The notes beneath the pieces were generated by a model. That model made no database searches. It had not been told where the DNA came from and saw only the letters and a program-made list of their open reading frames with translations. Of a stretch of DNA of 64,000 nucleotides, positions 13,449 through 56,243 are shown piece after piece; position 1 is the stretch's first letter, and the number at the start of each line of letters is the position of its first letter. The stretch lies in assembly GCA_021018995.1 (NCBI GenBank), contig CM037588.1, forward strand, positions 91,362,765 through 91,426,764, written 5' to 3'. A program made the position numbers and the translations under genes. This DNA comes from Chloranthus sessilifolius. Taxonomy: Eukaryota; Streptophyta; Magnoliopsida; Chloranthales; Chloranthaceae.

Positions 13449-13610
13449 GGCGTATATATTATATACGCCAAGGCAAATTTTGAACCATTTTGCTCGGCGT
13501 ATATAGTATATATGCCTGGCCATTTTTTCTATGGATTGGCTAGGCATATATAATATATACGCACGGCTTTTATGGTCGGACATTTTCCTGGCGTATATAA
13601 TATATACGTC
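13449..13610. promoter_or_regulatory. Palindrome array A1, upstream of the antisense DUF7745-like ORF
   Basis: Four copies of a 21-bp palindrome with core CGTATATAATATATACG and GGC/GCC ends, at 13449-13469, 13496-13516, 13543-13563 and 13590-13610, a regular 47-bp pitch. It lies 170-330 bp upstream of the ORF start on -. The same palindrome occurs upstream of the PMD gene (17475-17543) and in the element's 3' LTR (22550-22764). The regular spacing suggests a bound array rather than random AT-rich DNA. Confidence 0.9.
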
Positions 13611-13992
13611 CAGTTTAAGGCCGGGCCCAGCAAGCCCCCCCCCCCTCACATTGGCCCATTTTTGTTCCCAAGGGGGAACATGTTTCTGCTTTCCACTTCT
13701 TCATCTCAGGGCAGCCCACAGGCGCACATAATCACAAACCCATGGGAAGCCCCCGGATGACGCACTGCCCGTAGGTTAAATACGGAGAACCACATGCATG
13801 GTCCACCCCATCATTGGAGGGGTGCCGACTCATTTCAAGCCAAGGAAGAAGAAACCGTAAAGGCAAAAGCAAAGAAATACCCAAATAAAACATTCATATA
13901 AACCATAAAAATTATAAACCATCCAAAAAAAAAGAAGCAAAAATTGTTGTTATTACATATCCCCAAATAAACCAAAAGTCTAAATTGTTCTC
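13611..13992. other. Spacer between array A1 and the end of the PMD gene (A)
   Basis: GC-rich near 13620-13800, then A-rich (13850-13980). It probably holds the 3' UTR of the antisense PMD gene and the distal promoter of the DUF7745-like ORF. No further coding signal. Confidence 0.5.
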
Positions 13993-16431
13993 TTATGCCA
14001 AATTTCCAGAGAATAAACTAGTCCTGGGCAGCCCCCTTCGACTTCTTCCGACGCCGGCTTGCGCTTTGAAAGGTACGAGTCTCCCCACCCGAGTCCATGC
14101 CTGAGAAATACGGCTGAGAAGAGAACGCGACTCCTTTTCACGAGCACGCTGTAGGAACACACAAAAAGCCATCAGGTAGAGAAACAGGCGGAAAGTAAAT
14201 AAGGAAGATAACTAGGTTGGGTCAGCATTCACTCACCACTTCGGTCTCCCTAAGCCCTGCAAGGTTACGATAATATTCGGCTTGACTCACTGCTGACTCA
14301 TAATCCTAGCCAGTAAGAAAAAGGAGGTGTTAGTCACACAGGCCATCAGCATAATTCAAAGGGAAGGAGAATAAAGCAACAAGATAGAGATTACCCCAGG
14401 AATCAGCTTAGGAGGTGGGACCTGGATGGCTTTAGCTGAGATACGTGCCTTCTCGGCCACGTCGGCACACATGCACGACAAGAAAGCATCATCCAAACGC
14501 CTGAAAGTCCCCTGGACCTCGGAGGGAAAACTACCAGAAACACCAACACCAGAGGGGTCAGAGGGTCCAACACCTGAGGCCGCACCAGAAGCACCAACAC
14601 CAGAAGGGTCGGAAGGTCCAAAGACCTGCTCATCATAAGGAGCAACGCGTCATCCCCTCATCTCGAGTCCGCTCAAATCAGAGAGAAACATTTTATCATT
14701 AAAGGTGGCAGGTCAATCAAAGTAACCACAAGAAAGCTGCTAAATCAAAAAAGAAAAGGGGCATTACCTGAGATCGCGGCCCGTCAAAAGCTAAAAAGTT
14801 AGCACCAGGCATGAAGCGGGGCAGCAAGAAATGATAGGGCAGGGAATCGTACCACGACTGATACCCCCGGGCAAGAGAAGGTCATCGATAGGAACCCCAT
14901 GGTGAAGAAGTGAGCAGTGAGCTCATCAATGGAGCCTTCTGGAGCCAACACATCGGCGGGAGGAGCTTGGGGCACAACAAAGAGAGGACGATGCTGATGA
15001 ACCACTCTCTCCCCTAAATAGTAGGCCCTAGTCCAAGACCCATAGAGGAAGATGATGCGACGGTCTAGCAAAAAATGAGAAGGACCCACTGAGGCCAAGT
15101 TTCAGAAGGGAGTTCCTATGTAAGGGTCGAGAATGACCTGTAAAAGAAGAGAAAACAGGAGGATACACATTCGTAACCCACGGCACACAAGAGCTGAGCT
15201 GTCAAATTTATAAAAAGGGAATTGTTTTACCTGCTCTGGGATCAACAAGTCGAACTGAGAGCGCAGCCCTAACTCTAAATGCTTCATACCTACGTCCCGA
15301 TGGCGACCCACGTGCCAGTTACTCATGAGGGGGAACGTAGCAATTTCAGACTGAAGCAGAGGGCGACCCGGTTGGAAGTGAAGATACCCCCAGATCTGAG
15401 AAAGCAAGCAGATAAAGAAAGGTATGCTATAAAAGAAAGTTGGACACATTAAAACCGAAGGATAAAATACCTCAATTGCAGGCCAGAAACCCACAATAGA
15501 GCTAGACTCCCCAAGAACGGCTCGCTTTAGGCTGGACATGAGTACAGCATAGCCAGCGCCACCCCAATCAAATCGATGCACGGTCTCCCAGTTCACCATC
15601 AGGCTGACCAGGGATAATGAGACTCACCCTCCGCTGGTGTTGGAGAGGAGAGTCTTGCCCAGGAGGAACAACAAGGAGATGCTACAAGATAAGATGCTGC
15701 TGGCTCGATATAAATGGCCAGGTCAGGCTGGCCCTGGTTCACTAGCTCGTGAGACTCAAACTGATCAACAAGCCAGGACAGCTTGACCTCAGAACCTCGA
15801 ATATTCCCAGAGGTCGGGTAGGTCCCTATCAGTCGAATCACCTCCTCCTTACCCGGTGTGCGGGTAGGTACCATGGGCACCCCTCCAATACGGACCCCAG
15901 TGATCATGGACCAGTCCGCCGGTGTAAAGGCCATCTCTGCCACAGCCATGTGAAATGTCATGGTCTCGGGGCGAAAACCCTCTATCAGTGCCTTTAAATA
16001 GGTCAGACGGCCTCACGGGCACGAAATGAAATCTCAAACCGACAAAGAAGTGAGCGTGTGTCCTTCACCACTGGGGGAAGGTAAAGCACGAGGCGCTGGA
16101 GGTCAAACCAACCACCTCAGAACATAATGTGCAGCAGGGGCTGCAAACGGAAGGCGTCAATCAGATAAGGGCAAGCTGGTATAATGAAGACATCAAAGGA
16201 AAACAAAAGCAAAAGCGGAAAAGGGGAGGGGGCTCATCTGTTTACTTGACCAACGATCCCGAAGTTGGACATATGGGTGTGCTGGCAGTAGAGGAGGCCG
16301 GTATGGGCGGCCTCGCCTTGCATTTCATACCAAGGCTGGGAGGAGCACCGAGACACAATGAGCTGTTCCCCAAGGGAACCGTAGGCCATCTCCGACCCTT
16401 CTTGCTGATCATAACCTTCTTCATCGGACAT
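13993..16431 (-). pseudogene. Antisense plant-mobile-domain (PMD, MAIN-like) gene of element A, seven coding exons
   Basis: ATG at 16431-16429, TAA at 13995-13993. Exons deduced by comparison with B: 16431-16246, 16175-15471, 15395-15231, 15137-14768, 14671-14395, 14305-14237, 14148-13993; the six introns are 70-96 bp, GT-AG, and sit at the same places in B. The PMD core (PF10536 type) is in exon 2: MTFHMAVAEMAFTPADWSMI, GSEVKLSWLVDQF and WETVHRFDWGGAGYAVLMSS. Later exons hold TRAYYLGERVVHQ, a Gly/Ser/Pro repeat (GPSDPSGVGASG) and a basic tail. Frame breaks in exons 2 and 4 make it a pseudogene. PMD proteins such as Arabidopsis MAIN and MAIL1 are nuclear and act in gene expression and TE silencing; what the TE-borne copy does is unknown. 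Confidence 0.85.
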
Positions 16432-16432
16432 C

Positions 16433-16473
16433 CTGAAAGTATGAGGCGCATCGGCATATGAGAGGAGTGCAAA

Positions 16474-16524
<51 letters not shown>

Positions 16525-17258
16525 CACTAATCCAAAGAAAAAAAAGAATCTCATCACAAAAAAAAAAAAAAAAAAAAACAACTAATCCAAAAAAAATGTG
16601 TGTGCATGCTAAAAAAAAATGTGTGCATGAGTACTAATCCCAAAAAGAAAATGTGTGTGTGTGCATACTAACCCGTAAAAAAAAAATGCGTGTATGAGTA
16701 CTAATCCCAAAAAAAAAAAATGTGTATGTGTGTGTACTAATCCAAAAAAAATGTGTGTATGCGTACTAATCCAAAAAAAAAAATGTGTGTGTGCACTAAC
16801 CCATTAACAAAAAATGAGTACGTAATAATCCAAAAAAAAAAAAATGTGTGTGTGTGTATAAATGTACTAACCCATTAACAAGCAAAAACAAATGTGTGTG
16901 TATGTGTATACTAATCCACCAAAAAAAAAAAAAAAAAAAAAAAACATAAATACGCATACTAATATATGTATGCGCTAATCCAAAAAAGAGGGGAGAGGCA
17001 CCAATTCATCAAATAAAATGCACTAATCCATCAAAAATAATAAAAAAAAGAAAACAACCCCACAAAAACAAAATAAATGAATAATAAATGGGAAATAGGC
17101 CTAAGGAATCAAATATTTCAAACCAAGAAAAAAAACAACAACTGAAACAAAAAGAGACAAAAAGAAATATAGGCATCACAAAGCATTTCACCATATATAT
17201 AAAAAAAAAAAAAGAAGAAGAGAGGCAATCCAAAAGAAAAAGGAAGGATAATGGTTAC
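16433..17258 (-). other. 5' UTR intron of the antisense PMD gene (A)
   Basis: On - the leader ends GAAG/GTAACC (donor at 17258) and the acceptor TTTCAG lies one base before the start codon (CAG/G-ATG). Element B has the same layout (donor AAG/GTAACC, 52626-53250). In A the intron has been filled by simple repeats. The leader exon would begin downstream of palindrome array A2. Confidence 0.75.
16478..16995. repeat. (TA)n and AAAAATGTGTGTGCATACTAATCC minisatellite
   Basis: 16480-16519 is an almost pure (TA)n. From 16526 to about 16990 a unit made of ACTAATCC, A(7-24) and TGTGTGTG(C/T)AT recurs about a dozen times with varying length. It lies wholly inside the PMD 5' UTR intron of A and is absent from B apart from a short TA run. 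The ORFs crossing it are artefacts. Confidence 0.85.
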
Positions 17259-17474
17259 CTTCAATGGAAGAGAAAAACAAAGATCGACGGAGAACGAGCA
17301 CCTTTGATCCACAACCGCGACCCCCGGCAATAGAACTCAAGCCAAATCAAATGAAAAAACCCTAAGGGGTTGTCTCGGACTCCAGAAGAAAGTAGGGAGG
17401 AAGATAGAATTTGAAAAGGGGGGACCCTTTTGCGCTCGAGCTCGGGCAGTTTCGTAACTGCCAGATTTTAAACG

Positions 17475-17543
17475 GGCGTATATAATATATACGCCTAACC
17501 ATATTTCGCTAGATTTTGGTCAGGCGTATATATTATATACGCC
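17475..17543. promoter_or_regulatory. Palindrome array A2, upstream of the antisense PMD gene
   Basis: Two perfect copies of the 21-bp palindrome (core CGTATATAATATATACG) at 17475-17495 and 17523-17543, about 48 bp apart, close to the 47-bp pitch of array A1. It lies about 220 bp upstream of the PMD leader exon's donor site, so close to the expected transcription start. Confidence 0.9.
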
Positions 17544-18995: not shown

Positions 18996-21570
18996 TGTAA
19001 TAGCCCAAAAAATCACGCTAAACTATGACCTCGGGATCCGTGCCCGATCGGTCATAGGTTTGACCAAATGGAAGTCCAATAGTTAGCATGAGGTGTGGTG
19101 AACGGATGGGATGTGACAAATTGAATGTCTATGTGGTGTGCGTTGTAAATGTGAAGTCGCATACACCTATCGCGGTGTATGTGCTCAACACACACACGTG
19201 AGGAAAGGGATAAAAGGGTTTAATAACCCTAAATGTGTGTTTTTGGTGGTTGAGAGAGAAGTAAAGAAGAGAGAGAGAGAGGAAGTAAAGAGAGGAGTTA
19301 TTGCAACTGATTTGGAGGGGGGATTCAAGCGATAAAAGCCAGATTCAACACGGGTTGGATCTGTTAGAGCCAAAGCTGGAACCCTAGCCTTCCAACCATT
19401 TGATTTGAAATCAATTTGAGATTGATTCAAGGTAAATTTTTGTAAATAAAATGCATAAATCGTAGAGTCTAAATTGTGGTTGAAAGTGGGTTAAATCATA
19501 GGATAATGGTTTAGAAAAATAGAGGAAAAAGTATGGAAGAAGATTGGGAAGAACAGCTCGAAAGGGGCTGAATCTGACAATTTCGATTAATCGAAATTGG
19601 ATTTCGATTAATCAAAATTGGCCAGGAAGTTGAAAGGTCAGAGGACCCCGATTTCGATTAATCGAATTGGAGTTCGATTAATCGACTTTGGATTTCGATT
19701 AATCGATTTGAGTGTCGATTAATCGACTGGGAACCTCCAGTGGACCCCAGGGGACTGGAGGAAAGGACTTGAGGAAAATCGACTAATCGAAATGGGATTT
19801 CGATTAATCGATTTCAGTTTTCGATTAATCGATTTGGGATCGATTAATCGATTTTAGGAACTCGACTACTCGAATTGAGAATCGACTTTGCGAAACAGAG
19901 AATTTCGATTAATCGAATGAGATTCGATTAATCGAATGAAAATCTCGATTAATTGATTTGAAAATCGAACTACTCGAATTGAGAATCGACTTTGCGAAAC
20001 AGAGAATTTCGATTAATCGAATGAAAATTTTGATTAATCGATTTGAAAATCGATTAATCGATATTGACTTTCGATTAATCGATTTTGGAATTCGATTAAT
20101 CGACTGGGATAAAATATGTTGACTTTTGGGTTTGACTTTAAGATTCTTGGAGAGTCTTAGACCTTCTTTATTGCATCCTTTGTGATGTGTTTCACCTGTT
20201 ATGTGGTACCATAGGTGGTACGTGTGGACTAGTGCACAAGGAGCCACGTGGGACCTTGATGCGTTGAGCAAACAAAGACTTGAGGTAGGGAACACCTTGA
20301 ACATGTACCTTATTTCACAAGAGCATGTATGTAGTGATATAGATTTCAATTCAATTGTTTAAATGCTTAAGAATTGTGAAAAGTGTGTGTGCGTGTGACA
20401 TCCATAAGAGTAATCCTAATAAGCCATCCCCAGGGGATGAAGAAGTAAAGAGATGAGAGCATCAGGTGTGATGCAAGTAAAGGGATACATCCCAGGGATG
20501 TATCCAATGATTGAATCATGTTGATAGGGCCTAACTGATATAAGATATCACACTTACACGGTGAATAACTATATGTAAGGCACCGATATTTTTGTTATTT
20601 GAGGTTTGATAGGTTACCCCACCGACGTGGCGGGATATCCACGACTGACACGGCAGGATATCCGTGACCGATACGGCGGCGAAACCGTAGGCCAGGGCGG
20701 AGGCTTATCCGTACAAAGTAAGCACACCCCAGGGGTGTTGATTGAGACAAGTGAAACCCCGCCACCAATCCCCAAGGGAAAGGGGCTTGGGTACTATATT
20801 GGTATTCCCAGGGAATACGTTAAAACTGTCTATATAGATGACGATGAAGGGTATCTCATCGGGGCTTGATGCTATATTGCTCGGGGATTACTTAAGTTGA
20901 AAGTTTAAGTTTTGCTTTAGGCCTTTTCAGCATCATTCATGAGTAAATGAAAACATAATTAATCAACAGTAAAACGAAATGCTTTAACTGTTTTCATCAA
21001 TAACTGCATAGACACATCATGCATGGCATATCATGGAATATATGTGAGTTATAATTTATATGTTCAACTGTGTTTGTTCCCTATTGAGCTAGGATGTAGC
21101 TCACCCTATAGACTATACGTCGCAGGTCCACTACTAGCATTGCGCGGAGACGCGATCCCGTGAGACGGACCTGCGTCAGCGAAGAATTGGAGCCACCTCC
21201 TGAGGACTTCTTCTAGAGGACTCCGTTGTGCCGCTTTGAGGGCTTTTAGAGAGATTTTGTACGGCTTGGTATGTCAAGCCTTGATTTTGTTTAAGACCAT
21301 GTATATAAGGAGTTGGGATTATTCTTTTAGGACGAACCATCCGTGATGATTTCTATCATCGATGGTTCGGATCGGTTCTCTATTCATGCAGAGGCATGAG
21401 GGTAGAACTGTCTTTTGGGAAGTTAATTAATATAGATTTAAATTCCGCAATTTTGTTTATTATACTCTTTGATGCTTGATATACCAGTGTTTCGTGCTTA
21501 GCTAAAGGGCACGGTCAAGATGATCGTGCTGATGGCACGGGTTTCGGGGTGCCGAAATCCGGGCTGTCAC
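18996..21570 (+). mobile_element. Solo LTR H (2575 bp), probably Ty3/gypsy
   Basis: It starts TGTAATAGCCC and ends GGGCTGTCACA (imperfect inverted termini, TG..CA), flanked by GACAC on both sides. There is no coding sequence between the ends, so it is a solo LTR left by LTR-LTR recombination. It carries 18 copies of TTTCGATTAATCGAAA, several 'cccc agggg' palindromes (20428-20830), and a block (CTATTGAGCTAGGATGTAGC and onward, 21083-21180) shared with LTR I on the other strand (48420-48480). The termini resemble those of chromovirus-type LTRs, but the lineage is not proven. Orientation is nominal. Confidence 0.9.
19578..20108. repeat. TTTCGATTAATCGAAA palindrome array in LTR H
   Basis: About 18 copies of the 16-bp palindrome or its one-mismatch forms, mostly 20-35 bp apart. 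A roughly 105-bp internal duplication is visible (ACTACTCGAATTGAGAATCG recurs at about 19863 and 19968). The array begins about 580 bp from the LTR start, matching the offset of the unrelated AATCGATCGATT array in LTR I. Confidence 0.95.
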
Positions 21571-22117
21571 AGACACAAAAAATTTTTACTCGAAAAATGG
21601 GCATGCATTCCCAAGAGGTGTTGCGACATCAATATTCGCTTCACTCGGGTAAAACATGCTAAAATAACCTTGAGGTTGATGGGTCCGCCCAAAAGACTTC
21701 GAGCCTTACCTAGGTAAGGGCACCCGTGCCTAATCCAATGGAGCTGTCAATACCCCATAGGATTGGACGCATTGTTTAGGCCTTCACTTTGCGTGCTTCA
21801 CATCGATTCTGAAGCATAGATTGATCATCCCGTTTCATGGAGCTGTCTGGTTCAGATTAATACTCAACATCACAAATCTATAATTTCCCTCAGGAAGTGG
21901 ACGATATCCCGATTAGCAGGCTTACACTTTCTGTGATCATCGCAGTTATGCCCAGTAATGTCGCAATGCGCTTGAGAACTGTTAGCTTCGAGGTACGGAC
22001 GATATCCCGAAATGAGAGGGCTTACGTACACTCACCATCACCATGAATGTTTGAGAATTGAGTTGAACCAAGCGAACCCATCAAACGTGCCTTGGACCTC
22101 TTCGGATGTCTCTTATC
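21571..22117 (+). other. 3' noncoding zone of element A, second part
   Basis: It resumes element A after the solo LTR. Blocks shared with B on the other strand include GTTGCGACATCAATATTCGC (B 52043-52063) and ATGCCCAGTAATGTCGC (B about 51767-51783), showing that this leader-like 3' zone is conserved between copies although it codes for nothing. Confidence 0.65.
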
Positions 22118-22161
22118 TTTGGCATCCGATCATTAATGATCGAATACCAAAGAGGGGCATC
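22118..22161 (+). other. 34-nt palindromic hairpin plus polypurine tract of element A
   Basis: 22118-22151 forms a hairpin with arms TTTGGCATCCGATCATT and AATGATCGAATACCAAA; the centre is the perfect palindrome CGATCATTAATGATCG. It is followed by GAGGGGCATC and the LTR at 22162. B has a same-length hairpin exactly 10 nt from its LTR with TTTAG/CTAAA where A has TTTGG/CCAAA, a compensatory change. The AGAGGGGCAT stretch serves as polypurine tract. Confidence 0.85.
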
Positions 22162-23755
22162 TGTAGACACCCAAATTCGGCCCAAGGCTCGATCAATCTG
22201 TACTTCGGGAGATATGTACCCCTGTACTTCCGATGGCACCCCTGAACCCGTAGGAATCCACCCAGACCTTTAGGAATCACCCTGAACCCTTTAAAACCAT
22301 TCCCCAACCATTAGAGATCATCCCAAAAACCCTAGATCCCCTTTTCATACCTAACTTGAACCTTTCTGGGCAGTTGATGGGAGGAGAGCTACAAAATTTC
22401 ACACAGACCACTACCAAGGATGAGCCATATACCATTGGAAGGAGGGCTTCTCCAACATTCCAACAAGCCAAAGATCACCCAATTTGGAGCTACGATTCAA
22501 AAGTTATGGCTATTCAAAATTTCACATAAAATCATAGGACTTTTACTCAGGCGTGGATATTACATACGCCCAGCCATTTTTGCCCCAGATTAGTCAGGCG
22601 TATATATTATATACGCCTGCCTATTTTGGGGGAAATTTGGCCGGGCGTATATAATATATACGCCCAGTATATATGGGACCCACCACGGGCTTCATCTTCT
22701 CAAAACTCCCCTGATTTTCGTGAAATTTACTGTTCTTAAACTGGGCATATATAATATATACGCCCAGCTTAGCTAAGTAACTGTCCTTAGGATCTCGAAT
22801 TTCCTTCATCTGGTATGACCTTTTGACCATCCCCTTAGTTGGGGTGGGTGTCTTGAGCTTGGTTACACCCCCTTTGAGCTTATTTGCAACCCTTAAGTCA
22901 CCTATGGTCTCACTCCATCATCTGCCATTGAAATCGGTTCCCCACAAACCTAGGACCTTAAAAACCTAGAAAACCTTAGATGGAGGATTACCTAATTGCT
23001 AAACCAATTAGCTCTTAAGTAAGCCCCCAACCATCCCCTTCTCTATAAATAGAGAGGCCCCCCTCTTCCTTAAGGGTTGAAAAAATTGGAGGTTAAGGAT
23101 TTTGAGCTTAAGAGAGAACCCTAGTGAGAGAAAATGCACACATTTTTCCAGAATTCCAGCATGCTTAGTTCATCCATTTAAACCCATTTCCCCCATTAGA
23201 TCATTCCCTTTAACTAAAGTCTAGCCTTGAGTCTTACCCTACGCTCCCTATTTTATCGAATCCTATCATTAGAATCCATTCCCATACCGTTTAAACCATC
23301 GAAAGCACGCCAAAGTGAAGGACTTCCAAGGTGCAACAAGGGCCCGTGAGCTCCGGCTCACCCCTCTCTTCCTCTACCTTCTTGGTGTTTCCTCCGTCCA
23401 AGGATTCAAGCCGTTACGCCGCCGAAATTTCGGTTTGGCTCAAAGTTTGATAGGACTGTATTGCCTTTGGGCAAGGGGAAACTCCGCCCTTTTATCTTTA
23501 ATTTTTGGCCATAGATAGAGACCGCTATGTGCAGGTTGATCGGGTGCCCAAACCCTTTCTGATCGATAACCGAGGCCCCTACCCTAGAGCCTTTGGCAAA
23601 GACCGGTAAATCAGAGTCATATTTAGCATTTCGGTGCTCAAAATATTGATTTGAAGGTTTCCTGAGTCACCAAAAGCTCCGGGTGGCGACTCTACATTCC
23701 ATTAAAAGCGGGCGCATCGCCGCGACGGGTTCGAGAGGATCCATGGTCGCACAAT
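22162..23755 (+). mobile_element. 3' LTR of Tat element A
   Basis: It starts TGTAGACACCC directly after the polypurine tract. A TATA box TATAAAT is at 23044-23050, with arrays of the element's palindrome 280-490 bp upstream. The end is set approximately after GGTGGCGACTCTACATTCC and GGATCCATGGTCGCACA. Homologous to 51563-50353 in B (ACACCCAAATTCGGCCCAAGG against ACACTCAAATTTGGCCCAAGG). Small ORFs here are not credible genes. Confidence 0.85.
22550..22764. promoter_or_regulatory. Palindrome array A3 in the A LTR
   Basis: Four copies of the element-A palindrome: 22550-22570 (degraded), 22597-22617, 22644-22664 and 22744-22764. The first three are again at a 47-bp pitch and the fourth is 100 bp further. 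It sits upstream of the LTR TATA box. Confidence 0.92.
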
Positions 23756-24833: not shown

Positions 24834-27767
24834 CTAATTATAGGCATCATCTGGCCAACCATAGAGGTCAACCAGGTTTTTCAGCTCATCCTTAGATAAA
24901 GGAGCTTTTCCTTTAGATTTTGCTTTCGGTTGTGGGTTCTTTCTTTGCCTCCTCGGGGCGAGTTATTTTCCTTTTAGATCGTGACAGCAGAATAATCTGA
25001 ATCCAAATCAGAAGGAAAAAGGGCAGTGGGGTCCAATCCTAGAGCCACAGTAGCCTTCCTTCTTTCCTCCCTTGAGAGTAAGGTGAAGGAGGCGTCAGGT
25101 TAGGTTGGGGGCTTGGTGGGGTGAGCTTCTTTAGATTGGGCAGCAGGCTTCTTTCCTATCTTGACAGAAGCAGCAGAGGGAGCAGATCTTTTGGTAGCAA
25201 CTTTCTTCTTGGGGGGGGCCCTTTTAGATTTTAGAGGGGCAGGTTGAGTAGGGGGAGGTTCTTGGGCTGGAGGAGGGTGCACAGCCACAGGTGGGGTGGG
25301 AGGAGGTTGAGTTGTAGAAGGGGGACAGGATTGAGTGGAGGGAGGCGCAGTAGGAGGCACGGTAGCTAGAGGGGTAGGTTGAAATGGCTGAGAGGTAAAG
25401 GAAGCAACCTTTTTCTCTAATATGTCAGTTTGTTTTGCGACATAGAGCAGGTTAGCATCAGAGAGTTCCTTGGTGGCCTTGAGTATCTCCTGAGCATTGG
25501 CTAATTTTTTCTTGAGAAGCTCAGAATTCTTCTTCTAATATTTGGCAATTAGACTCTCAGCAGCTGCCAACTGTTTGGCGGACTCATAACGAGTCAGGAT
25601 TTCAGACCACCCTTGAGAGATATCTCGGAGCTTGATTCTGTGCTCCAATTCTTGTTGGCAATCCTCTCCTCATAAGGGGCTTCAAGGAAAGCTCGGAGTG
25701 CAACCATACCTCTCAGGACATCCCTTTGGATGTAAGGGTTGTCCCTCATGGCATACAGCAGGGTGAGGCAAGGGGGAATGTACATGTTTTGCCTAAGGAC
25801 AATGGGCAAGGACAGGGGTGTAGTGGATGAAGAGGAGGGGGTGGAGAGAACCAAATCCTCCCATGGATCAGTTCGGGTGGAGGCATCTTGGAAAATAGGT
25901 GGGGCGAGAGGGGGGGGTAGGTGATGGGTGATTCAGCCACTGCCAAAGTAATTATAGGTGGTGATGAAGGGAGAACAGATGAAGGTGCTGGGAGAGATGG
26001 GGCTGCTACCTCCTCAGACTGGGCAGCAGCCCGGGGTGGTGAAGCTATGGGTGAAGGAGGGGTAGATAAATGTATGGGTACGTGGATAGGTGAAAGAGGG
26101 GAGGTGGAAGGCGGTTGAGGAGTTAGAGAGGATGGGGTAAGGGTGGATTGAATTGATTGGAGGCATGAGCTCATGAGGGTCTGGTTGTCGGTGTTGATGG
26201 TTAATTGGGATTGAATGGATTGGAGGAGGGATAGAATTTGAGTGAGGGTGTCAGGCATGGTGGGGGTAGAAGGGACAGGTGTTGGAATTGGATGGAAAGG
26301 AGAGGAGGGTGCATGGTTAAAATGAGGAGTGGGGCGTGGGGAGTCAGGCAGTGGAGTGTACTCATGAGCAACGTCCTCCACAATTGAAGTCATGAGGGCA
26401 GTGAACCCAGTAGTGGTGAACGGGTCCACACCCTGTGTATTCAGAGGGGGTTGCGGAGGGGGGAAATTAGAAATGGGTTGGGTAATGGGTGAAGAAGAAA
26501 TGGTAGGGGTAAGCTCGGAGAATGTGGGAGGTTCAAGGACTTCAGGTTGGAAAACTTAAGAGGTGGGTGAAGGTAAAATAGGTTTAAAGGTGGTTGGAAT
26601 GGGGTATATTGGAAGAGGAACTGATACAAAGGGAAAGAGAAAAGTGGGTGGAGGTGTGGGTAATGGGACAGGTATGGTAGGTGGAGGGATGGATGAGGGT
26701 ATCTTGGCTGGAGAGCTGCTTCCACGATAGTGGGTGCCTTCTTAGCCTCCTCCATTCCAACTGACTTACTCTTCTTAATCAAAGTGAGGCTGGTGGACCA
26801 TTCCCGCTTTCCATATAATTTGCTGGTCAGCTTCTCCATTGGCTTATTTCTCTTGATCACACACTTCCCAGTCTTGAGCAGACATGTGATGAGTCTGCAG
26901 AAAGGCATACCTCCTCCCTTAGCAAAAGCTTGTCTCTTCAGCACCTTATCATTGATGTCCACCATTGTTTCAAAAATTAGCTTAGGTGCATTCACAAATT
27001 GCCCCTTTGAATAGAAGTATAGGGCATCCACTAATGGGGCCCTTCTCTCTTGCAAATGGCCAGTGACAGACATTTTTCCTCAAAATGCTATCAATGAGTC
27101 TTAGGGTAGGATGGAGGTCTCTTCTCATCAGAGATTCACCAGAGCCCACTATTCTGTTAGTAAGCTGTTTAGCCATTTCCCTAAATGTAGCCCCTATAGG
27201 TGCTCCCTCAGCTCTGGTGGAGTCAAATTGATATGGGACTCCCAAAGCCATCCCAGTATCTCTGCAATCGACAATCAGCTGCCAGTCATCAATCATGATT
27301 TCTAGTACATCCTCAGCCCCAGGCACCACCTTCTTTGTCAGGTTCTGGTACCATAATTTCACCAACCTGGGGTACACATTTTCCTTCAAGGGTGAAAGCA
27401 GGGGCAATAGACCTTCTTTCTTCAAATATTCCAATGTCCCCTGACACTCCCCAATATTGGCAAAATATGCCAGATCAAAATCTGTCTCAGGGACAAGACT
27501 CAAATTCTCTACAAACTCATTGGGGGTAGTTAACCCAGCTGGAAGCTGTACTGTAGGAGCAGCTCTCGCTAAGGGTTTTTCCACCATAGGCTTCTGAATT
27601 TCTACTGCTTTGGCTTTCTTGGCTTTAGGGGCCTTCTTAGGTGTCTCTTTAGAGAGCTTCCTCTTAACAGGAGGTTTGGAAACTGGCTTCGATTTCTTGG
27701 AAGATTTGGGGGTAGAAGCAGCTGGTCTCTGGAGTAGGTTTGCTAGGGTTTCCTCAAGTTCTGCCAT
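24834..27767 (-). pseudogene. Extra ORF of element E, 'putative plant transposon protein' (PF20167-like)
   Basis: ATG at 27767, stop TAG at 24836-24834, about 970 codons with several frame changes. N-terminus: a Lys/Pro-rich, nuclear-signal-like segment (SKKSKPVSKPPVKRKLSK). Conserved core about residues 70-330: FVENLSLVPETDFDLAYF, VYPRLVKLWYQNL, GVPYQFDSTRAEG, RIVGSGESLMRRDLHPTLRL, ALYFYSKGQF and FCRLITCLLK. It matches my memory of the plant family labelled putative plant transposon protein, common beside Athila elements. The rest is Pro/Ser/Thr-rich with a Gln/Leu helix (MPDTLTQILSLLQSIQSQ) and a basic tail (SKRAPPKKKVATKRS). It is co-oriented with gag and has its own promoter. Function unknown. 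Confidence 0.7.
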
Positions 27768-28089
27768 TTACTCTCAGGGATTGTTCACTCACCAACTTGT
27801 AATGAAATTTAGAGGTTAACAATTGGAACAACGACAGATTGGCGGTGGGAAGGCATCTTACCCCAAAATTCCTAAGGTTTGATAGATATCGCAATACACA
27901 GCTCCAAATTCTCCAAAATCATATGCACAATGCTCCTCTGCGCAAGCTCAATGCAGGTACAAAATGGCAGACTGAATGGCTGAAGGCTCTGTGAGGATTT
28001 AATGGAGAAGGAGGGAGGCAAAAGAGAGAGGAAGAGAACTAGGGTTTTGTAGAGGGTAGGGAGTGAGGCACAAATGACCTATTGACAGG

Positions 28090-28367
28090 TATATAAGGGG
28101 TGAAATGCGATTTCGATAGGATGAATTGGGTGGTTTCAATAGGTTTATGCGTCCTGTCGAAAGCTTAGCTGACAAAGCTTTCAAAAGGGATGATTCGATA
28201 GGATCCCGATAGGTGGAACCATCCTTCCGACAGGCCTCAGTGCCTATCGAAACCATCAAATATCCTGTCGAAATCACCGTGTGCCCTAACAAAAAGTGAA
28301 ATTGACCTATCAAAAGCTCCCACAAACCAAATAAGGCTGCGTTTCTGGGCACTCTCAGCTTCAGCAC
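28090..28367 (-). promoter_or_regulatory. Internal promoter of element E with TTTCGATAGG array
   Basis: On -, a TATA box (TTATATA, 28096-28090) is preceded within 10-240 bp by about seven copies of TTTCGATAGG or CCTATCGAAA variants (28106-28300). The transcript would run into the ORF starting at 27767 through a CT-rich leader. The same motif fills the element's LTR (32798-33332). This is direct evidence that the extra ORF has its own promoter built from the LTR's regulatory motif. Confidence 0.8.
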
Positions 28368-28613
28368 TCAGTAGGCTCATCTGCTGTGCTGCTCTACAGT
28401 TTGTTCCCCTTATAGCTAAGCTCCCATTATCTCAAGACAACTGGTAATATTGAAATGATGGCCTAGTATTAAGCATGGCAATTTTTTTATTTTATTTATT
28501 TTTTATTTATTTTTTTTATTGCAAGGAAAAGAAAAAAAAATCAATTAACAACAAAGTAAACACCTAAAACAAAAGCAAAGTATGGTACATATGATACATA
28601 CTGACTTCAGGGG
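28368..28613 (-). other. Spacer between E protease and internal promoter
   Basis: Contains an AT-rich tract (28480-28550, TTTATTTATTTTT). No coding signal. It is the place where RT would begin in a complete Athila element, so pol is absent here. Confidence 0.55.
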
Positions 28614-31184
28614 CTAATCTGGAGGGTCTGGAAGGTCCATAGTCTCCTCAGGCTCATCAAACTTGGCACCTTTCGTGGATCTTTTCCTCAGCCAGTGTCC
28701 CTCCCCTGAGTGTAGTTTTCCCTCTGTAAACCAAGCATTGTCCTGCAACAGCCAATGTGTATTTTCATGAATCACTCTTTTTTTTGCATTAATGGAAAAA
28801 CAAGCCTCTTCAGGAGAGGGTTGATAGCCAGTGCTATACACATTCAGCTTAACCTTCATGTTTCCAAATGACACTTCCATGATTCCATACCTGCATTGTA
28901 TGTGAGCATTGGCAGTGGCCAAAAAGGGCCTGCCTAGAATCACAGGTATGGAAGAAGCACATTTGCTTGGTTCCATGTCCAACACCAAAAAGTCAGCAGG
29001 ATAAAAGAATTTGTCAACTCCAACCAACACATCTTCAATTATCCCCATGAGTTTCCTTTCAGATCTGTCAGCCAGCTTTAGGACCACATGTGTGGGCTTT
29101 AATTCTCCAAAGTCCAGCTTCTCATATAGTGAATATGGAAGCAAATTTACATTGACTCCCAAATCTAATAAGGCTTTATCAACGGTGTGATCCCCAATGA
29201 TGCAGGGGATAGTGGGGGTTTCAGGGTCTTGAAATTTGGTTGGGGTTGCATTCGACAAAATTTGTTTCACTTTCTCTGCTGAAAAGACTTTCTTGGATAT
29301 GTGTATCCTAGATTGTCTTTTATGGGTGCATAGCTCTTTCAAAAACTTAGCATAGGCTGGGACTTGTTTAATTGCATCAAGTAAAGGTAAGTTGATCTTT
29401 ACTTGCTTGAAAGTCTCCATCATTTCCTTTATTTTACCTTGCCTTTTATCAAAAGGGGAAGGTGCTTGTAGTGTCTTAGGAAATGGCAAATGTGGGATTG
29501 CTCCCTCACTTGCAGCCTTAGCCAATGGGGCCTCTTTCTTTTTGATTTTTTTCTTTTCTTGAGGATCCTCATTATCCTCTTTATTCACAGCTGGTTGCTC
29601 CTTCAAGTCCACCACTGGTGGCCTTTGTTGTGTTCTTGTAGGAAGCACTCAATTTTCTTCCTCCAAGTTCCTCACAGGCTCACAATCCACTTGATTGTCC
29701 ACTAACCTATCACTTCTCAATGTTGTAATAGATTTGGCTTCCTCATAGGTGGAGGAAACTTCATCCACTACAAACTGTCTTCGTGGGTTATCCTGTGGTT
29801 GGCTAGGCAGCCTCCCTCCTTCTCTTCTACTCAAGGCATCAGACAGCTGACCAAGTTGATCCTCTATCTTTTTTATGCTTTGATTGTGAGAGTGCACAGT
29901 TTGGGATAAGGAGTTCAAGTTCTGCAGTGAAGATATTACTTGTTCCTCAAAGGAAGGTGCTCTCGCAGCTGGAGGGAGTGCAGATTGCTGCACAGGAGGA
30001 GCTACAGGTTGGGCCATGGGTTGCTGATACTGAGGACTTGGGGCATAACCTTCTCAATAGGGCTGAGCAATTACATGGGGCATGGGGTTCTTTGGGGTTT
30101 ATCTTGTCTCCACCTCAGTTGGGGTGGTTCCTCCATTGATACCAGCAGCAAGCTGCCCTTATAAGGCGAGTTTGTAGCCACATGCTCTGTTATAAAATCA
30201 GGAAACTGGTCCACAGATGGGCATTCTTCAAGGGAGTGAGCAGGGGACTGGCATATGGCACATGCCTCCTCCACCCTAGCAGGCACAGGTGACTGCATAG
30301 CTGTCCACTTTCCTTTCCAAATCACTTGGCACACTCACTTCATATATCTTCCCTCTTGAGGTATTCTCCTTCAATAACCTAGGAGGCTCTAGATCACTAG
30401 CCAAGGTTTCCCTTTGCATAGAGTTGTCACTAATAATATCAAAGAGCTCCCATGCCTCCTCAGTAATTTTATAGAGGTAGGTGCCACCACAGGAAGCATC
30501 TATCACGTCTCTTCTTTTAGAATCAATTCCCTGATAAAAGCTTTGAACCAATTGCCATTCAGGGATTTGATGGTGGGGGCATTTCTTTAGGAGTTCCTTA
30601 AATCTCTCCCAGGATTGATGAAAATCTTCAGTTGGGTCTTAGGTAAAAGAGATGATATCCTTCCTCAACTGGCTGGTTTTTGACATAGGGAAGAACTTGG
30701 CCAGAAATTGACATTGGAGATCACTCCAAGACTGAATGCTGTTGGGTGGAAGCAAGGTTAACCAGGTCCTGGCTCTGTTCTTTAATGAAAAATGAAAGAG
30801 TCTCATCCTGGTGGCCTCCTCCCCAAAATGTGTGATGTTGAAAGTGGTGCAGAGTCCTAATAATTCATCAATGTGTTTAAAAGGATCCTCTTTGGTCAGG
30901 CCATAAAATGAGGGTAACATCTGAATTATGGAAGACTTTATTTCATAATTTCCTTGAGCAGCTGGGAACTGAATGCAGAAGGGGTAATTGTAAACCCCTG
31001 GTGCATTAAATTCCTTGAGAGTTCTAGCTTGTTGTTGCTCACCCATTTCTAAAAATTCAGCTACAATAGTTGTGAGTAGAGTTTGTCTAGATCTGGGATG
31101 TCTTTCAACCTCTGGATTTAGTGGAATAATCTGAGGTTGGAGAGTTCTTCTCCCAAACATACAACACTCAAATTCTGAATGCAA
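28614..31184 (-). pseudogene. Gag-protease of Athila element E
   Basis: One mostly continuous frame of about 855 codons: stops near 30639 and at 29651-29649, and a frame excursion at 30334-30071. Gag core: NYEIKSSIIQMLPSFYGL, DPFKHIDELLGLCTTFN, MRLFHFSLKNRARTWLTLLP, FLAKFFPMSKTSQLRKDI, typical of Athila. A zinc knuckle CAICQSPAHSLEEC fits C-x2-C-x4-H-x4-C exactly. A coiled segment (SLSQTVHSHNQSIKKIEDQL) follows. The protease has LLDLGVNVNLLPYSLYEKL (D-L-G, the Athila form) and VILGRPFLATANAHI. It would form the particle and process it. It is fairly well preserved, so younger than element G. Confidence 0.88.
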
Positions 31185-31442
31185 AACAGATCCTCAACAC
31201 AGCAAGTAGAATCAACTAAACTTTCTAACTATTTAAAGAAAAATCAACAGATCTAAAAAATAAAAGGGGAGTAGAGGGATGCAAACTATAGAGCAGCCTC
31301 CAGCACAATTCTCCTCTCACTGGCAACCTCAGATCTGATGAAATGCACACAAAGTATTGAAAAATAATAAAACTTACAAATGCAGTTAGTAAAATCAAAC
31401 AAACAACTACAAAACTTAGATCTACCAATTTCTAAACACACC

Positions 31443-31460: not shown

Positions 31461-31466
31461 AAAACT

Positions 31467-45775: not shown

Positions 45776-45849
45776 ATGCAATCTCAGTGAGCGACCTAAA
45801 ACAGGCCCGTAAGGTCTGACTTTGGATGAAATCTACACCCTCATACCTT

Positions 45850-50352: not shown

Positions 50353-51563
50353 TAAGGACTTCAGTTATCAACCGAGAAGGTGTTAGGCACCTGATTGACC
50401 TGCTCGTAAGCGGTCTCTACTATGGGCAAATATGAAACATAAAAATAGAAAAGTGCGACACTTCCTCTTGCTTGAAGGCACTCCGATCCTATTTGAGTCC
50501 CCCCGTATTCACCGAAATTTTAGCGGCATAACGGCTTAAATTCGAGGATAGAGGAAAAGAAAAGAAGGTAGAGGAATAGAGGGGAGAGTCGGAGCTCTCG
50601 GGCCCTTCTAGCACCATTGTGGACCTTCGAGTAGTTGCGCTTTCGGTGAGCTTCCGATGGCAAATGGATTAAGGAATGGGTTTTGATCTCTAAGGCTTGG
50701 GAGCTAGAGGGTAGGAGAGATAGGCTAAAGCCTTGTTCTTGCTAAAGATAAGGGATTGATGATGGATAATGGGGTATGAATGGAAAACCTAGGTTCTAGA
50801 AATTTGGAGGATTAATGCTATAAAGGAGAGGAAGAAATCTCTAGAGCTTTCTATCTTTTGGAAAATTTTAAAGGATAGGGGATTAGTGAGTATTAAGTGC
50901 CAATTTTGGTTAGCAATTAGGTAATGGGGATCTAAGGTTTTCTAGGATTTCTAGGGCTTAGATACGTGGGAACTTAGGTTTAATGGTAGATGATAGGGTG
51001 GGGTTCTAAATGGCAAAAGCGTAGAACTTAAGTCTAGGAGGGGTGTAACAGTCCTAAAGAGACCAACCCCAAACCTTGGGGTGGTAAAAAAGTCAAACCT
51101 CAAAAGTAAAATTCGGCCATTTTGATGAAAAATACTATTCCTAAGCCTTGTGTGTATATTATACACGCTAGGCTTAGGAATAGTGTCCTTTGAGAAAACA
51201 GAGAAGTTCAGAGCTCGTACCTGAAGCCTGAAACAAAAATATGCCTTGCGTATGTAATATATACACAAGGCCAATTTCTGGAAAATTTTGCCTTGCGTAT
51301 ATAAAATACATGCAAGGCTTAATTCTGGATCGAACAAAAGTAGGCCTATATTTCTATCCGGGGCAGGCCTGCTAGGGGCCCATGGGGTTCAGTTATGGGT
51401 TCTAGGGATCTGGTTGGGCCTTCCATCGGGAAAGGTTCGGGTTAATTCCTAATGGCTTGGGGAAGGGTTTTTAAAGGTTCAAAAGATGTTATCAGAATCT
51501 TGAGAGTACGCCTTTCTCAAAGTACGTGTCGATCAAGCCTTGGGCCAAATTTGAGTGTTTACA
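50353..51563 (-). mobile_element. 3' LTR of Tat element B, truncated
   Basis: On - it starts TGTAAACACTCAAATTTGG directly after AAGGGGCATC. A TATA-like CTTTATAG is near 50820. The palindrome array lies 245-430 bp from the LTR start. It is cut at 50353 by LTR I, so the last part (equivalent to 23570-23755 in A) is missing. Confidence 0.85.
51134..51318. promoter_or_regulatory. Palindrome array B3 in the B LTR
   Basis: Three copies of the element-B palindrome (CCTTGCGTGTATA ... TATACACGCAAGG form) at about 51145-51173, 51243-51272 and 51290-51318. The first is embedded in a 51-bp near-perfect palindrome (51134-51184) with outer arms ACTATTCCTAAGCCT and AGGCTTAGGAATAGT. Confidence 0.9.
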
Positions 51564-51607
51564 GATGCCCCTTTTTAGTATTTGATCATTAATGATCGTA
51601 TGCTAAA
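51564..51607 (-). other. 34-nt palindromic hairpin plus polypurine tract of element B
   Basis: On - the hairpin arms (51607-51574) are TTTAGCATACGATCATT and AATGATCAAATACTAAA, followed by AAGGGGCATC and the LTR at 51563. Length, centre and distance to the LTR equal those of A, with one paired exchange in the stem. Confidence 0.85.
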
Positions 51608-52243: not shown

Positions 52244-52411
52244 TTTGCATTTATATCATACATGCAAGGTCACCTCTGAAAAAAAAAAACCTTGCGTGTA
52301 TATTATACATGCTAGGCCTTGTATGGGCAAAATAAGCCTTGCGTGTATATTAAACACTCTAGGATATTTCTAGGAAAAATAAGCCTTGCGTGTATATTTT
52401 ACACGCTAGGC
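52244..52411. promoter_or_regulatory. Palindrome array B2, upstream of the PMD gene of B
   Basis: Four copies of the B-type palindrome: about 52244-52269, 52290-52317, 52336-52363 and 52383-52411, at a pitch of 46-47 bp, the same as arrays A1 and A3. The PMD leader follows within about 60 bp. Confidence 0.9.
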
Positions 52412-52429
52412 CATTTCTCTATTTAAAAC

Positions 52430-53251
52430 AGATGGACACGAGCAGAGACCTGAAAAAAAGGCTCTCTTTCAAAAAAAAAATTTCTCTTCTCCTCCTCAAA
52501 ACTGAATTCGGCATTCTTCTTCTTGCTTCATTGATCCGTTTCGTCTTTCGACATCACTCTGGTGTCGATATCGCCGACCAATCCCGCATTTTTTGTCGAA
52601 TCTAGGGTTCCCATTTTCGAACAAGGTAACCTTTTCAAAAACCCCCTCTTTTTTAATTTCTTGGTCATTTTATCCATGTAATTAGGTTTTTTTTGTATCT
52701 AGATGGTAAAAGAGTGATTTTTCTAGCAAATGTAGCTACTTGTAATCCATTCCGTTGATTTATGGGTACTTTGCATGGATTTTGTTGGAAATGTTGATCA
52801 ATTTTGGCACCCTTCTTCTCTCCTTTTTTTTGAATTTCCTTAATTTTTATTTATGAATGCTTTGGGGCTTTTGTAAAATCTGGTATTTTTACGCATAACG
52901 TGAAAGTCTTTGATCCCCTATTTATTTATGCATATGCCTTGAGGGAATTTTGGCCGATAAATCAGAAAAATCTTGGGAAAATGATGGATTTTTTTGACAA
53001 AATGTGGGGATTTTCTCTAAATTCGTCATTTGGCCGTTCTTTTTATGGAATTTTGACACAAGAAATATGTACATGTAGTTTTTGTTTGGTTGTGAAAATG
53101 TGGGGCAATGGGTGCCCTTCTGCCAGATTTTTTTTGTTTATATATATTACATATATATTTCTTTATATATATATATATATATTTTTTTTTTCTATTTGTT
53201 TTCTTCTCCTTTTTTCTTTTATGATGAAAATGCGGGCCTCTCCTTTTCAGG
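52430..53251 (+). other. Leader exon and 5' UTR intron of the B PMD gene
   Basis: The leader (about 52430-52625) ends ACAAG/GTAACC. The intron 52626-53250 ends CCTTTTCAG one base before ATG (53252). A (TA)n-like stretch at 53145-53182 corresponds to the simple repeats in A's intron. Confidence 0.75.
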
Positions 53252-55635
53252 ATGGTGTGTAGGCAACAGGGTGATGGTGACCAGGGCCAAAAGGATGGCC
53301 TAGATGAGGTGACTGGTATTGGGGGTGAGCGCCTTGTTCGGGTTCAACGCTCCTCGTGCAGTTGGCTTGAGATGCAGGGCGAGTCGGCCCGTAGTGGGTT
53401 GCTTCACCAATAGCATACCCATGTCTGGAATTTTGGGATCGCGAGTGAGGTAAAAATATATTTATTGGTTGCTCCCTTTTGTTTGTGATCCTTTGTTCCA
53501 GGATCTAACATTTTCTTTTCTTTTGATGCAGTATTTGCTTCTGATTATGTTCTGTGGAGGCTGGTTCGATCTCCGATGCTTTACATCCATCTCCCTTATG
53601 TTGTGAGGTTCTTCCTAGCACAGGTCGACTTCAGGAACTTCTTATCTTGTCCTGTCATGAGGGGTGATTCTGCCTACGTAAGGCCCTGGTGGAGAGGTTT
53701 TGTCCTAAGACGATGACCTTCCACATGTCCGTGGCTGAGATGACCATCACCACTATTGACTGGTCCATGATTATGGGAATTATGATTGGAGGGGAGCCAA
53801 TGATCTGTCCTCGCATTCCTAATCGTGAGGAGGTAATTTGACTGATTGGGGACTATCCCCCTTCGAACCATATGACCGGCTCTGAGGTTAAGCTGTCTTG
53901 GTTGGCGAATTTGTTTGATTCTGAGGAGTTGGTTGATCTAGACCAGCCTGATATGGATATCATCACCGAGCCCAAGTGTGCCCTGATAATTGCTCGTATT
54001 GCACTTCTTTTTGTTCTGGGCAAGACGATCTTTGCTAATGCTAGTGGCGGTTGTGTCTCGCTATCCCTTCTCTGCTTGATGGAGAACTGGGAGGATGTGC
54101 ACCATTTTGATTGGGGCGGTGTCGGGTATGTTGTGCTGATGGACAGCTTGGCTAGAGCTTCAGTTGGGGACCTTGCTTCCCTCTATGGTTTCTGGCCTGT
54201 GATTGAGGTAACACATTTGTTTTGCTCTTTCACTCCTAGTTCATCATTTTTAACCTTTTTGACTTTTATTTGATATATATATTTTCTTGTTTGTCCATCT
54301 TTTCAGGTTTAGGGGTATTTGCATTTTTAGCATGGCCGCCCCCTCCTCTTTTCTGATTAGTACACATACCCCCTCATGAGTTGTTGGCATAAGGAACATC
54401 GCCAGGAATTGGGGATGAAGCATTTGGAACTAGGTCTGAGGTCCCAATTTTACTTGATGATTCTAGAGCAGGTTTGACACCCCTTCCTTTCATTGATTAA
54501 TTCAATGAGGTTTGACTACATCACCTGACTAACGGGATTCCCCTTTCTTGGATAGATGGTATTTGATCCTTACATCGGCTCTTCATTCTTAGATTGCGTA
54601 GTTGTTGGCCGATCGTGACTATTTATTAATCATCGCGTCATCTTCTTCTACAACTCTTAGACCCGAGCCTATTATTTGGGAGAGAGGGTAATGCATCAGT
54701 ATCGTGACTTCTTTATCGCGCCTCTGAGTCCTCCTGAGGATATTATGGAGCCGAGGGGCACAGATGAGGAGCTTACAAAGGGGCTCCTCTGTCATGGGGT
54801 CTTGATTGATGGCCTTTACCAGCATGGGGGGTATCATTCGTGGTATGATTCTCTTCCTTACTGATCTATGCTCCCGCGTTTCGTACTTGGTGCTAATTTC
54901 ATAGCATTCGGGGTCCATGAGCCCAGGTATTTTCTCTTTTTCCTCCTTTGTTTGTTGGTTTCCTTTCCGACTTAGTAGGGTTATGTTTTGCTGATCGGAT
55001 TTCTCCCTCTCTTTTTTAGTTTGAGGAGGCAGTGGATTATGACGTGGACACAGACATGGGGCTTTTAGGGGTGCTGGGTGCGGGACCTTCAGGGGTTTTC
55101 GGAGCAGGACCTTCAGGGACTTATGGTGCAGGAACTTTGGGGACCTCTGGTGCAGGGTGTACATGGGTTTTTTAGTGATTCGACAATGGATTCCTTTTGG
55201 AGTTGTGTGAGGAAGTGACAGAGCATGCTTTCCCATCTACCGAGGCAGTTAGAGCTCCTCCTCCCGAGCTGGTTCTAGGGGTGAGTTGTTACTTCTTTTA
55301 GGGATATGCTTGCTTCCTTCTCTGTCTGTGTTGCTGACTTTTCTGTTCTTTCCTCTCATAGATTTATGAGTTAGTTGTTCAGCAGGCGGAGTATTATTGT
55401 CATATTGCTGATCTTCGGGAGGCCGAAGTGGTAAGTATGATGTTGGTTTGTCCCCTTTATTTCTTTGTCGGCTCATGCTTTTTCTCAACTGATCCTTCTT
55501 GCGTGATGCTTTCAGCGTGCTCGCGAGGAGTCACGTTCACTGCTTAGTTGGCTGACCCAAGCATGGTCGCGGGTGGGGGAGGTCAAGTCCATGACGTATC
55601 AGAGGGCTCAACGCCGACAGAGGAGGGACTCCTGA
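53252..55635 (+). pseudogene. PMD (MAIN-like) gene of element B, seven coding exons, antisense to pol
   Basis: Exons 53252-53449, 53532-54207, 54307-54471, 54556-54926, 55020-55280, 55362-55430, 55516-55635; all six introns are GT-AG and 81-99 bp. Exon 1 has WLEMQGESARSGLLH (A: WYEMQGEAAHTGLLY) and one TAG. The PMD core lies in exon 2: MTFHMSVAEMTITTIDWSMI, GSEVKLSWLANLFDSEELV, then MENWEDVHHFDWGGVGYVVL. Exon 4 has TRAYYLGERVMHQYRDFF, exon 5 a Gly-rich repeat (GAGPSGVFGAGPSGTYGAG), exon 6 YELVVQQAEYYCHIADLREA, exon 7 a basic end. Several frame breaks in exons 2-5. Nuclear localisation and a role in TE or gene regulation are inferred from Arabidopsis MAIN/MAIL1. Confidence 0.87.
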
Positions 55636-56086
55636 GGACCTGGAGGTTGATTGGAAGCCGCTTTTGTTTTTTTGTTTTTTTTGCTTTTATGTGAACATTA
55701 GATCAGATGGATGTAGACAATATGTTTAACTCTGGATATATTTTGATCCCTTTGAGTGGCCACCATTTTAATTTCATTTTCAGCTTCTTGTATGTGTTTG
55801 TACTTGCTCTTTCTCCCTCCCCCCCTTTTTGTGTTGATAGCCAATGTATGATTGAGGTTTAGCCACCTGTTATGTCTTCTTTTCTTCCGAAAGGGTGATA
55901 CCTGAAACCAAGAAGATAGGTTAGGTGGTCATAGCTGGGTGCCCGGCTCATGACCTGGGGTGCTTCCTGTAAAGAAATAAGTGTTATTGGGTGCAGGTGA
56001 ACTAGTCTAAAAGGCAAGGGAAGACAGCTCCTATTTTTTTCTCTCTTCCCTCTTTTTTTTTTATTTTTTATTTTGGTCTTGCGTGT
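55636..56086. other. 3' UTR and spacer after the B PMD gene
   Basis: T-rich, no coding signal. The start probably serves as 3' UTR of the PMD gene; the end leads into array B1. Confidence 0.5.
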
Positions 56087-56243
56087 CTATTATATACTCA
56101 AGGCATTTTCCTGGCCTTTTTGGTCTTGCATGTATAATATATACGCAAGGAATTTTCTGGGCCTTTTTGGCCTTGCGTGTATAATATATACGCAAGGCAT
56201 TTTCTGGGCTTTTTTTGCCTTGCGTGTATAATGTATATGCAAT
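56087..56243. promoter_or_regulatory. Palindrome array B1, upstream of the DUF7745-like ORF of B
   Basis: Four copies of the B-type palindrome (best: CCTTGCGTGTATAATATATA-CGCAAGG at 56170-56198) starting near 56087, 56124, 56170 and 56217, pitch about 46 bp. The ORF begins 148 bp further. Confidence 0.9.

Follow-up and report, generated by a model that had tools for sequence, protein, structure and literature searches.

We analysed a stretch of 64,000 nucleotides (nt) from the genome of Chloranthus sessilifolius (contig CM037588.1 of assembly GCA_021018995.1, positions 91,362,765 to 91,426,764; hereafter the window) that contains the 3′ portions of two Ty3 retrotransposons of the Tat clade, A and B, which lie in opposite orientation and face each other. 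In both, the region between pol and the long terminal repeat (LTR) holds two genes antisense to gag–pol, and both carry arrays of a two-fold symmetric site, or ‘dyad’, in the LTR and upstream of each antisense gene. The arms of the dyad are linked to its core and are alike across the loci of single copies, and the sequence further out is not. On balance, we favour the reading that a dimeric regulator of the element’s own promoters, probably encoded by the element itself (a PMD protein), recognises the dyads as double-stranded DNA sites.

A preliminary description of the window had claimed three arrays per element, with ten dyads in A and eleven in B, and this holds at every place: the U3 part of the LTR and upstream of two antisense PMD-type genes, here eORF1 and eORF2.

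22551..22763, plus strand: LTR array of element A, dyads at 22551, 22598, 22645 and 22745
17476..17542, minus strand: eORF1 (PMD) promoter array of element A, dyads at 17476 and 17524
13450..13609, minus strand: eORF2 promoter array of element A, dyads at 13450, 13497, 13544 and 13591; TATAA 29 base pairs (bp) past the proximal dyad
51150..51313, minus strand: LTR array of element B, dyads at 51150, 51248 and 51295
52247..52406, plus strand: eORF1 promoter array of element B, dyads at 52247, 52294, 52341 and 52388; TATTTAA 13 bp past the proximal dyad
56081..56240, plus strand: eORF2 promoter array of element B, dyads at 56081, 56128, 56175 and 56222; TATAAGG 25 bp past the proximal dyad

The half-sites read roughly GCCRG-GCGTATATA in A and AGCCTT-GCGTGTATA in B, and the regular pitch described earlier is 47–48 bp in the window, plus one step of 98–100 bp in both LTR arrays. 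Both LTR arrays skip one site before the last dyad, leaving gaps at 22664–22744 in A and 51169–51247 in B. Chance origin of the dyads was rejected, as ten dinucleotide shuffles of the window gave 0–2 matches each at up to four mismatches to the degenerate core.

By their divergence, A and B are old relatives: synonymous divergence (dS) is 1.8–2.7 in matching frames, a rough figure at such distance but near saturation, so that neutral sequence should be largely randomised between them, and the ratio of nonsynonymous to synonymous divergence (dN/dS) is 0.05–0.07 in the matching frames of pol. Despite the near-saturated synonymous sites, the 19-bp cores of the dyads differ by only 0.14–0.18 between A and B. 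Compared without regard to orientation, loci within one element differ by 0.27 in the four bases outside the core, against 0.67–0.68 between A and B, and the outer 12 nt show no effect (0.58 between loci of one element versus 0.58–0.59 between A and B). The arms had been described as purely of one type in each element, which is true of B (22 of 22 half-sites of the B class) and only largely so of A (16 of 20 of the A class).

The observation is confirmed and proves to be general across this genome. In the host assembly (2,168,743,587 bases in 32 contigs), the core GCGTRTATAWTATAYACGC occurs exactly at 11,949 places, compared with 0 for the reversed control, and the pattern of the 3′ LTR start at 4,635 places (2,325 and 2,310). 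Twenty regions of 10 kb were scanned with the core pattern, leaving the arms free; arrays were placed by BLAST against the features of the window, and leader arrays by position. Counting those of the window, 142 sites were obtained, in 47 arrays and 23 copies, 18 of which have arrays at two or more loci. Two solitary matches with three mismatches (L019 2638 and L024 9872) were left out of the tests, the arrays of L017 and L032 are termed leader by position only, and an array of L022 labelled eORF2 resembles an eORF1 promoter; relabelling it alters nothing of substance. Among 95 intervals between neighbouring sites, 53 are exactly 47 bp, 75 fall at 46–49 bp and 14 at 97–101 bp. On contig C1 (199 Mb), the first dyad among the matches listed stands at 55.99 Mb, which suggests enrichment away from the chromosome arm.

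Two palindrome types had been proposed; A and B do differ as described, and the genome sample extends the count to at least five arm types. These are type 1 (element A), CCTT with G at position 5 (element B), CCTA with G (L034 and L035, with L018 similar), type 4, which is CCTT with A and an altered centre (L023 and L024), and CCTG or CTTG with G (L025, L028 and L033). The type-4 centre, such as TATATAAAG, is less symmetric and resembles a directional TATA box. Seven copies (L019, L021, L023, L024, L026, L030 and L034) have a fourth array, which stands 1.8–1.9 kb from the LTR array and in front of reading frames that by eye resemble gag. None was seen in the window, and the 5′ LTRs of A and B lie outside it.

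For two arm classes, we write R for AG or GG and T for TA or TT adjoining the core, and A or G core for the base at position 5. Across the 142 sites, the left and right arms are R/R in 61, T/T in 57, R/T in 6 and other in 18. Genome-wide, R on both sides of an A core is found at 6,758 places and R on both sides of a G core at 0; R on one side and T on the other of an A core is found at 77 places, and T on both sides of a G core at 1,280. A 29-letter pattern with open flanks matches 6,136 places, and among the 50 matches listed, 30 are R/R, 13 T/T, 0 R/T and 7 other, with A at position 5 in all 66 of 66 R half-sites. Among the 18 pairs listed at distances of 0.3–10 kb, 15 are of the same class (13 R–R and 2 T–T), 2 include an unclassed site and 1 is T–R; this single T–R pair spans two different elements (L028 and L029). 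Left arm, right arm and core thus form discrete linked sets.

This matching of left and right arms bears on a reading without any binder, namely that conversion or template switching homogenised the arrays at the DNA level, copying them from one locus of an element to another. The 47-bp unit common to the arrays would fit such copying, which does not, however, predict that the two arms of a site match each other. We compared arms at different loci of the 18 multi-locus copies with the same arms once copy labels had been permuted among arrays of the same locus class: arms differ by 0.318 within copies versus 0.509 when shuffled (0/5000 shuffles), the rest of the core by 0.116 versus 0.123 (414/5000) and the outer 12 nt by 0.577 versus 0.583 (1050/5000). 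The claim that the motif had changed in concert at several sites survives this test, as the arm type is common to the arrays of a copy and the sequence further out is not, and the majority class agrees between loci in 16 of the 18 copies. Local conversion of whole arrays, named beforehand as the alternative to check, explains this poorly, given that the outer flanks are no more alike within copies than after shuffling. A weak outer-flank trend in some sets with type 1 reduced leaves room for a small contribution, and as an account of the arrays we consider homogenisation improbable.

Of the 18 multi-locus copies, 11 are of type 1, the dominant family. The arm signal stays without it: 7 copies and 17 arrays remain, in which arms differ by 0.236 versus 0.342 when shuffled (10/20000) and the outer 12 nt by 0.578 versus 0.591 (1357/20000); with one type-1 copy added, in any of three choices, the arms give 0–1/20000. 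Among the type-1 copies alone, the arms are no more alike within a copy than between copies (17052/20000), which is what an arm type characteristic of the family would predict, and the rest of the core gives 119/20000.

Two further readings were considered. The AT-rich centres contain TATATAA-like words, and in type 4 the centre is altered, and the dyads could be core-promoter signals, in effect TATA boxes that the basal machinery uses in either direction. Conservation and symmetry nevertheless extend past the centre into GC-containing arms that are family-specific, and a separate TATA-like word follows the array within 70 bp in 13 of 17 accessory promoters (counted without a background control): of the 8 arrays labelled eORF2, 6 have TATAA at 25–29 bp beyond the proximal dyad, and of the 9 eORF1 arrays, 5 have TTTAAA or TATTTA at 3–20 bp. 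In the LTR of A, TATAAATA is found at 23044, about 280 bp past the last dyad; the LTR of B has no clear counterpart of it at the equivalent place. We regard the core-promoter reading as highly improbable. Because the arrays lie inside the element, they could also fold as short hairpins in the genomic transcript and act as RNA in packaging, dimerisation or small-RNA production, but the 142 sites show no strand bias, and changes that keep pairing as G–U in the sense RNA are about as frequent as those that give A–C (31 versus 27; 12 versus 11 at position 5). To RNA hairpins we give almost no weight.

A strand-neutral dyad of two half-sites, placed upstream of promoters and in U3, would be the expected footprint of a homodimeric transcription regulator. 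The arrays of a family have the same arms although their outer flanks have drifted, which speaks for a single binder in each family, and a well-supported interpretation is that a single trans-acting dimeric factor would read all arrays of a family, with sites and factor evolving together. Such a factor could come from the host: a dimeric transcription factor, alone or together with its paralogues, may bind the dyads, each family having settled on the one that it exploits, with the PMD genes doing something else. Host factors that bind LTR arrays are familiar in plants, which we count in favour of this reading, and a position upstream of promoters together with dyad symmetry would suit any dimeric factor. 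At least five arm types coexist in this one nucleus, however, and A arms never occur with a G core, so that a single host factor would not explain them and several would be needed, each read at all loci of its family. We therefore consider a host origin of the binder unlikely, if far from negligible; several types side by side in one genome favour a binder encoded by the family.

The candidates in the elements themselves are the two accessory genes, whose architecture in eORF1 is common to A and B.

14000..17300, minus strand: element A eORF1, PMD-type, antisense to gag–pol, broken; Pfam PMD on 15102–15623 with an E value of 3.5e-4
11915..13303, minus strand: element A eORF2, PMD-type, one in-frame stop; Pfam PMD in two pieces with E values of 1.6e-7 and 1.5e-5
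52430..55700, plus strand: element B eORF1, PMD-type, broken; Pfam PMD on 53842–54270 with an E value of 0.0021; aligns to A eORF1
56430..57900, plus strand: element B eORF2, PMD-type, broken; Pfam PMD on 56437–57039 with an E value of 4.3e-7

Labelled earlier as PMD and DUF7745-like, these genes probably belong to PMD (PF10536), judged by the matches of pieces of both; the best piece reaches 31.3 bits, below the curated cut-off of 34.9, perhaps because the genes are broken. For the DUF7745 label, one piece gives a weak match (E value of 0.0016). In both A and B, eORF1 appears by eye to have an intron in its 5′ untranslated region (AAG|GTAACC ... TTTCAG|GATG). Between A and B, dN/dS is 0.22 in eORF2 and 0.18 in the best-matching eORF1 frame (278 codons), so both genes look as if they are under purifying selection. 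A search with A eORF2 against a large protein collection scored 7,995 candidates, with 0 at or below 1e-3, and one against the PDB gave a single match with an E value of 0.15, which is not meaningful. PMD is present in 57% of Ogre elements, according to the available text of PMC6317226.

As they sit behind these promoters and appear to be under purifying selection, the PMD genes are natural candidates for the binder. With less certainty than for the existence of one factor per family, the factor may be made by the element, most likely by one of these two genes, and the element may activate or de-silence itself. In the mechanism that we favour, a dimer would bind the arrays, mostly at a 47-bp pitch, in U3 of the LTR, at eORF1 and eORF2 and, in copies with a 5′ end, in the region upstream of gag, and the element would thereby activate or de-silence its own regulators along with itself, in a loop confined to the family. 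Activation, repression and anti-silencing would all be compatible modes of action. The CpG of the half-site is intact in 216 of 284 half-sites, and we would guess that it allows sensitivity to methylation. The family-specific versions of the signal suggest that every family may have a regulatory protein of its own that switches it on. A broader proposal, which we put forward tentatively and hold a little short of even, is that PMD proteins of Tat elements may be sequence-specific dimeric regulators with an orthogonal family palindrome in the LTR, in the gag leader and in front of both accessory genes, such that one genome would harbour several private codes, each switching with the protein and all sites together.

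Several points weigh against a regulator encoded by the element, or limit how far the data carry it. The putative binding is read from sequence, PMD has no established DNA-binding fold, and an AlphaFold model of a piece of eORF2, built with two sequences, reached a mean predicted local distance difference test (pLDDT) score of 34, unusable for a fold search. The 20 regions were cut at the first matches, on contig C1 between 55.99 and 76.33 Mb, and form a non-random sample. Two multi-locus copies depart from agreement between loci, L021 with an unclassed leader array and L029 with a tie at a single-site array, and in the eORF2 array of A itself, 4 of 8 half-sites are not of the A class (2 T-type and 2 other). 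The type-1 LTRs form one clade in the LTR tree, in which L027 was entered with an assumed array end at 8723 and other branches are partly resolved; as arm types follow families, independent switches of type would be few. The smaller sets also show effects outside the arms: without type 1, a slight within-copy likeness extends to the rest of the core (359/20000), and with one type-1 copy added it gives 39–79/20000, a small effect in the same direction, with a weak trend in the outer 12 nt (461–1188/20000). Finally, 4 of the 17 accessory arrays have no TATA-like word nearby, in counts that are likewise without a background control.

We assign A and B to the Tat clade of Ty3 LTR retrotransposons, with the arrangement known from Ogre and Retand: those elements have a second RNase H between the reverse transcriptase (RT)–RNase H and the integrase (available text of PMC6317226), and such an additional RNase H sits at the same place in A. 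Extra open reading frames and a long region from pol to the 3′ LTR are further Tat features, present here as the two antisense PMD-type genes of A and of B.

3900..10400, plus strand: gag–pol region of element A, Tat clade, with a second RNase H between RT–RNase H and integrase; Pfam matches to RT_RNaseH_2 in 7469–7891, RVT_3/RNase_H in 8094–8483 and rve in 9036–9713
22162..22780, plus strand: 3′ LTR start (U3) of element A, holding the LTR array; polypurine tract AAAGAGGGGCATC, then TGTAGACACCC
50900..51563, minus strand: 3′ LTR start (U3) of element B, at 51563, holding the LTR array; polypurine tract AAAAAGGGGCATC, then TGTAAACACTC
59300..64000, minus strand: pol region of element B, with roughly 71% identity to A across 4.9 kb

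A second palindrome, ATCATTAATGAT, lies directly upstream of the polypurine tract in A (22124–22145) and in B (about 51573–51600). Six copies of a 61–62 bp tandem repeat, unrelated to the dyads, occupy 11097–11544, 3′ of the pol of A. Inside the 3′ region of A, about 19002–21573 resembles by eye a solo LTR or similar insertion (TGTAATAGCCC...GGGCTGTCACA flanked by GACAC repeats, with many TCGATTAATCGA units). Between A and B are minus-strand open frames of another element (25746–31193 and 33829–34368); a Pfam search with the minus-strand frame 28614–29645 gave no match.

One of the two closest parallels is offered by the VANDAL transposons of Arabidopsis, whose anti-silencing VANC proteins bind short motifs in tandem repeats that differ between related families (available text of PMC5735166). 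Arrays of short, family-specific motifs in non-coding regions are found here too, and an element-encoded, sequence-specific protein that co-evolves with its motif, the other half of the VANDAL/VANC system, would have its counterpart in the putative PMD regulator (PMC5735166, in part). The differences are considerable, as VANC motifs such as YAGTATTAY are non-palindromic, whereas those described here are palindromes, and binding and demethylation have been demonstrated for VANC (same source, in part), whereas binding by the PMD proteins is putative here. VANDAL elements are also DNA transposons (MULE) with VANC, whereas A and B have integrase, RNase H, an LTR and PMD genes. Among retroelements, the Tas protein of foamy viruses acts on the LTR and on an internal promoter; like them, the elements described here combine an accessory gene with an internal promoter, with the same type of site at the LTR and the internal promoters (PMC4929722, in part). 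Foamy viruses are vertebrate retroviruses, however, and the Tas picture does not include a large number of family-specific codes side by side in one genome. The Tas protein is not known to be related to PMD.

For the antisense accessory genes of plant LTR retrotransposons, a regulatory role was suggested earlier from nuclear location or predicted DNA binding, in the available text of PMC7264820 and PMC11963269, where the role of these genes is also termed undetermined (PMC7264820) or unknown (PMC11963269). The antisense genes of Retand, Grande and RIRE2 contain TRP28 or other domains, not PMD, and the same text describes no motif common to the LTR and internal promoter of these elements. The earlier claim of novelty is narrowed accordingly: regulatory antisense reading frames were suggested before (PMC11963269 and PMC7264820, in part), but among the best matches of searches in the open-licence literature of PubMed Central (PMC) we found no report of a plant LTR retrotransposon whose LTR and internal promoters share a palindrome. 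In the host, the PMD proteins MAIN and MAIL1 are required for expression of genes with a common promoter motif, DOWN (PMC7156037 and PMC9899485, in part). This motif (CATGCAGTTT in MORC1) is unlike the dyads described here and belongs to host genes; whether PMD proteins touch chromatin is described as an open question in the available text of PMC9899485.

With a defined motif, natural family variants and thousands of copies, both the role of the accessory genes and the contact of PMD proteins with chromatin become directly testable. If our reading is right, a system of regulator and site that belongs to the element, as in VANDAL transposons and foamy viruses, would exist in plant LTR retrotransposons too, and the many types found together would show how such systems diverge inside one nucleus. 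The broader proposal, if true, would amount to a self-contained regulon carried by an LTR retrotransposon and would give the PMD domain a biochemical function, in its host-domesticated forms too.

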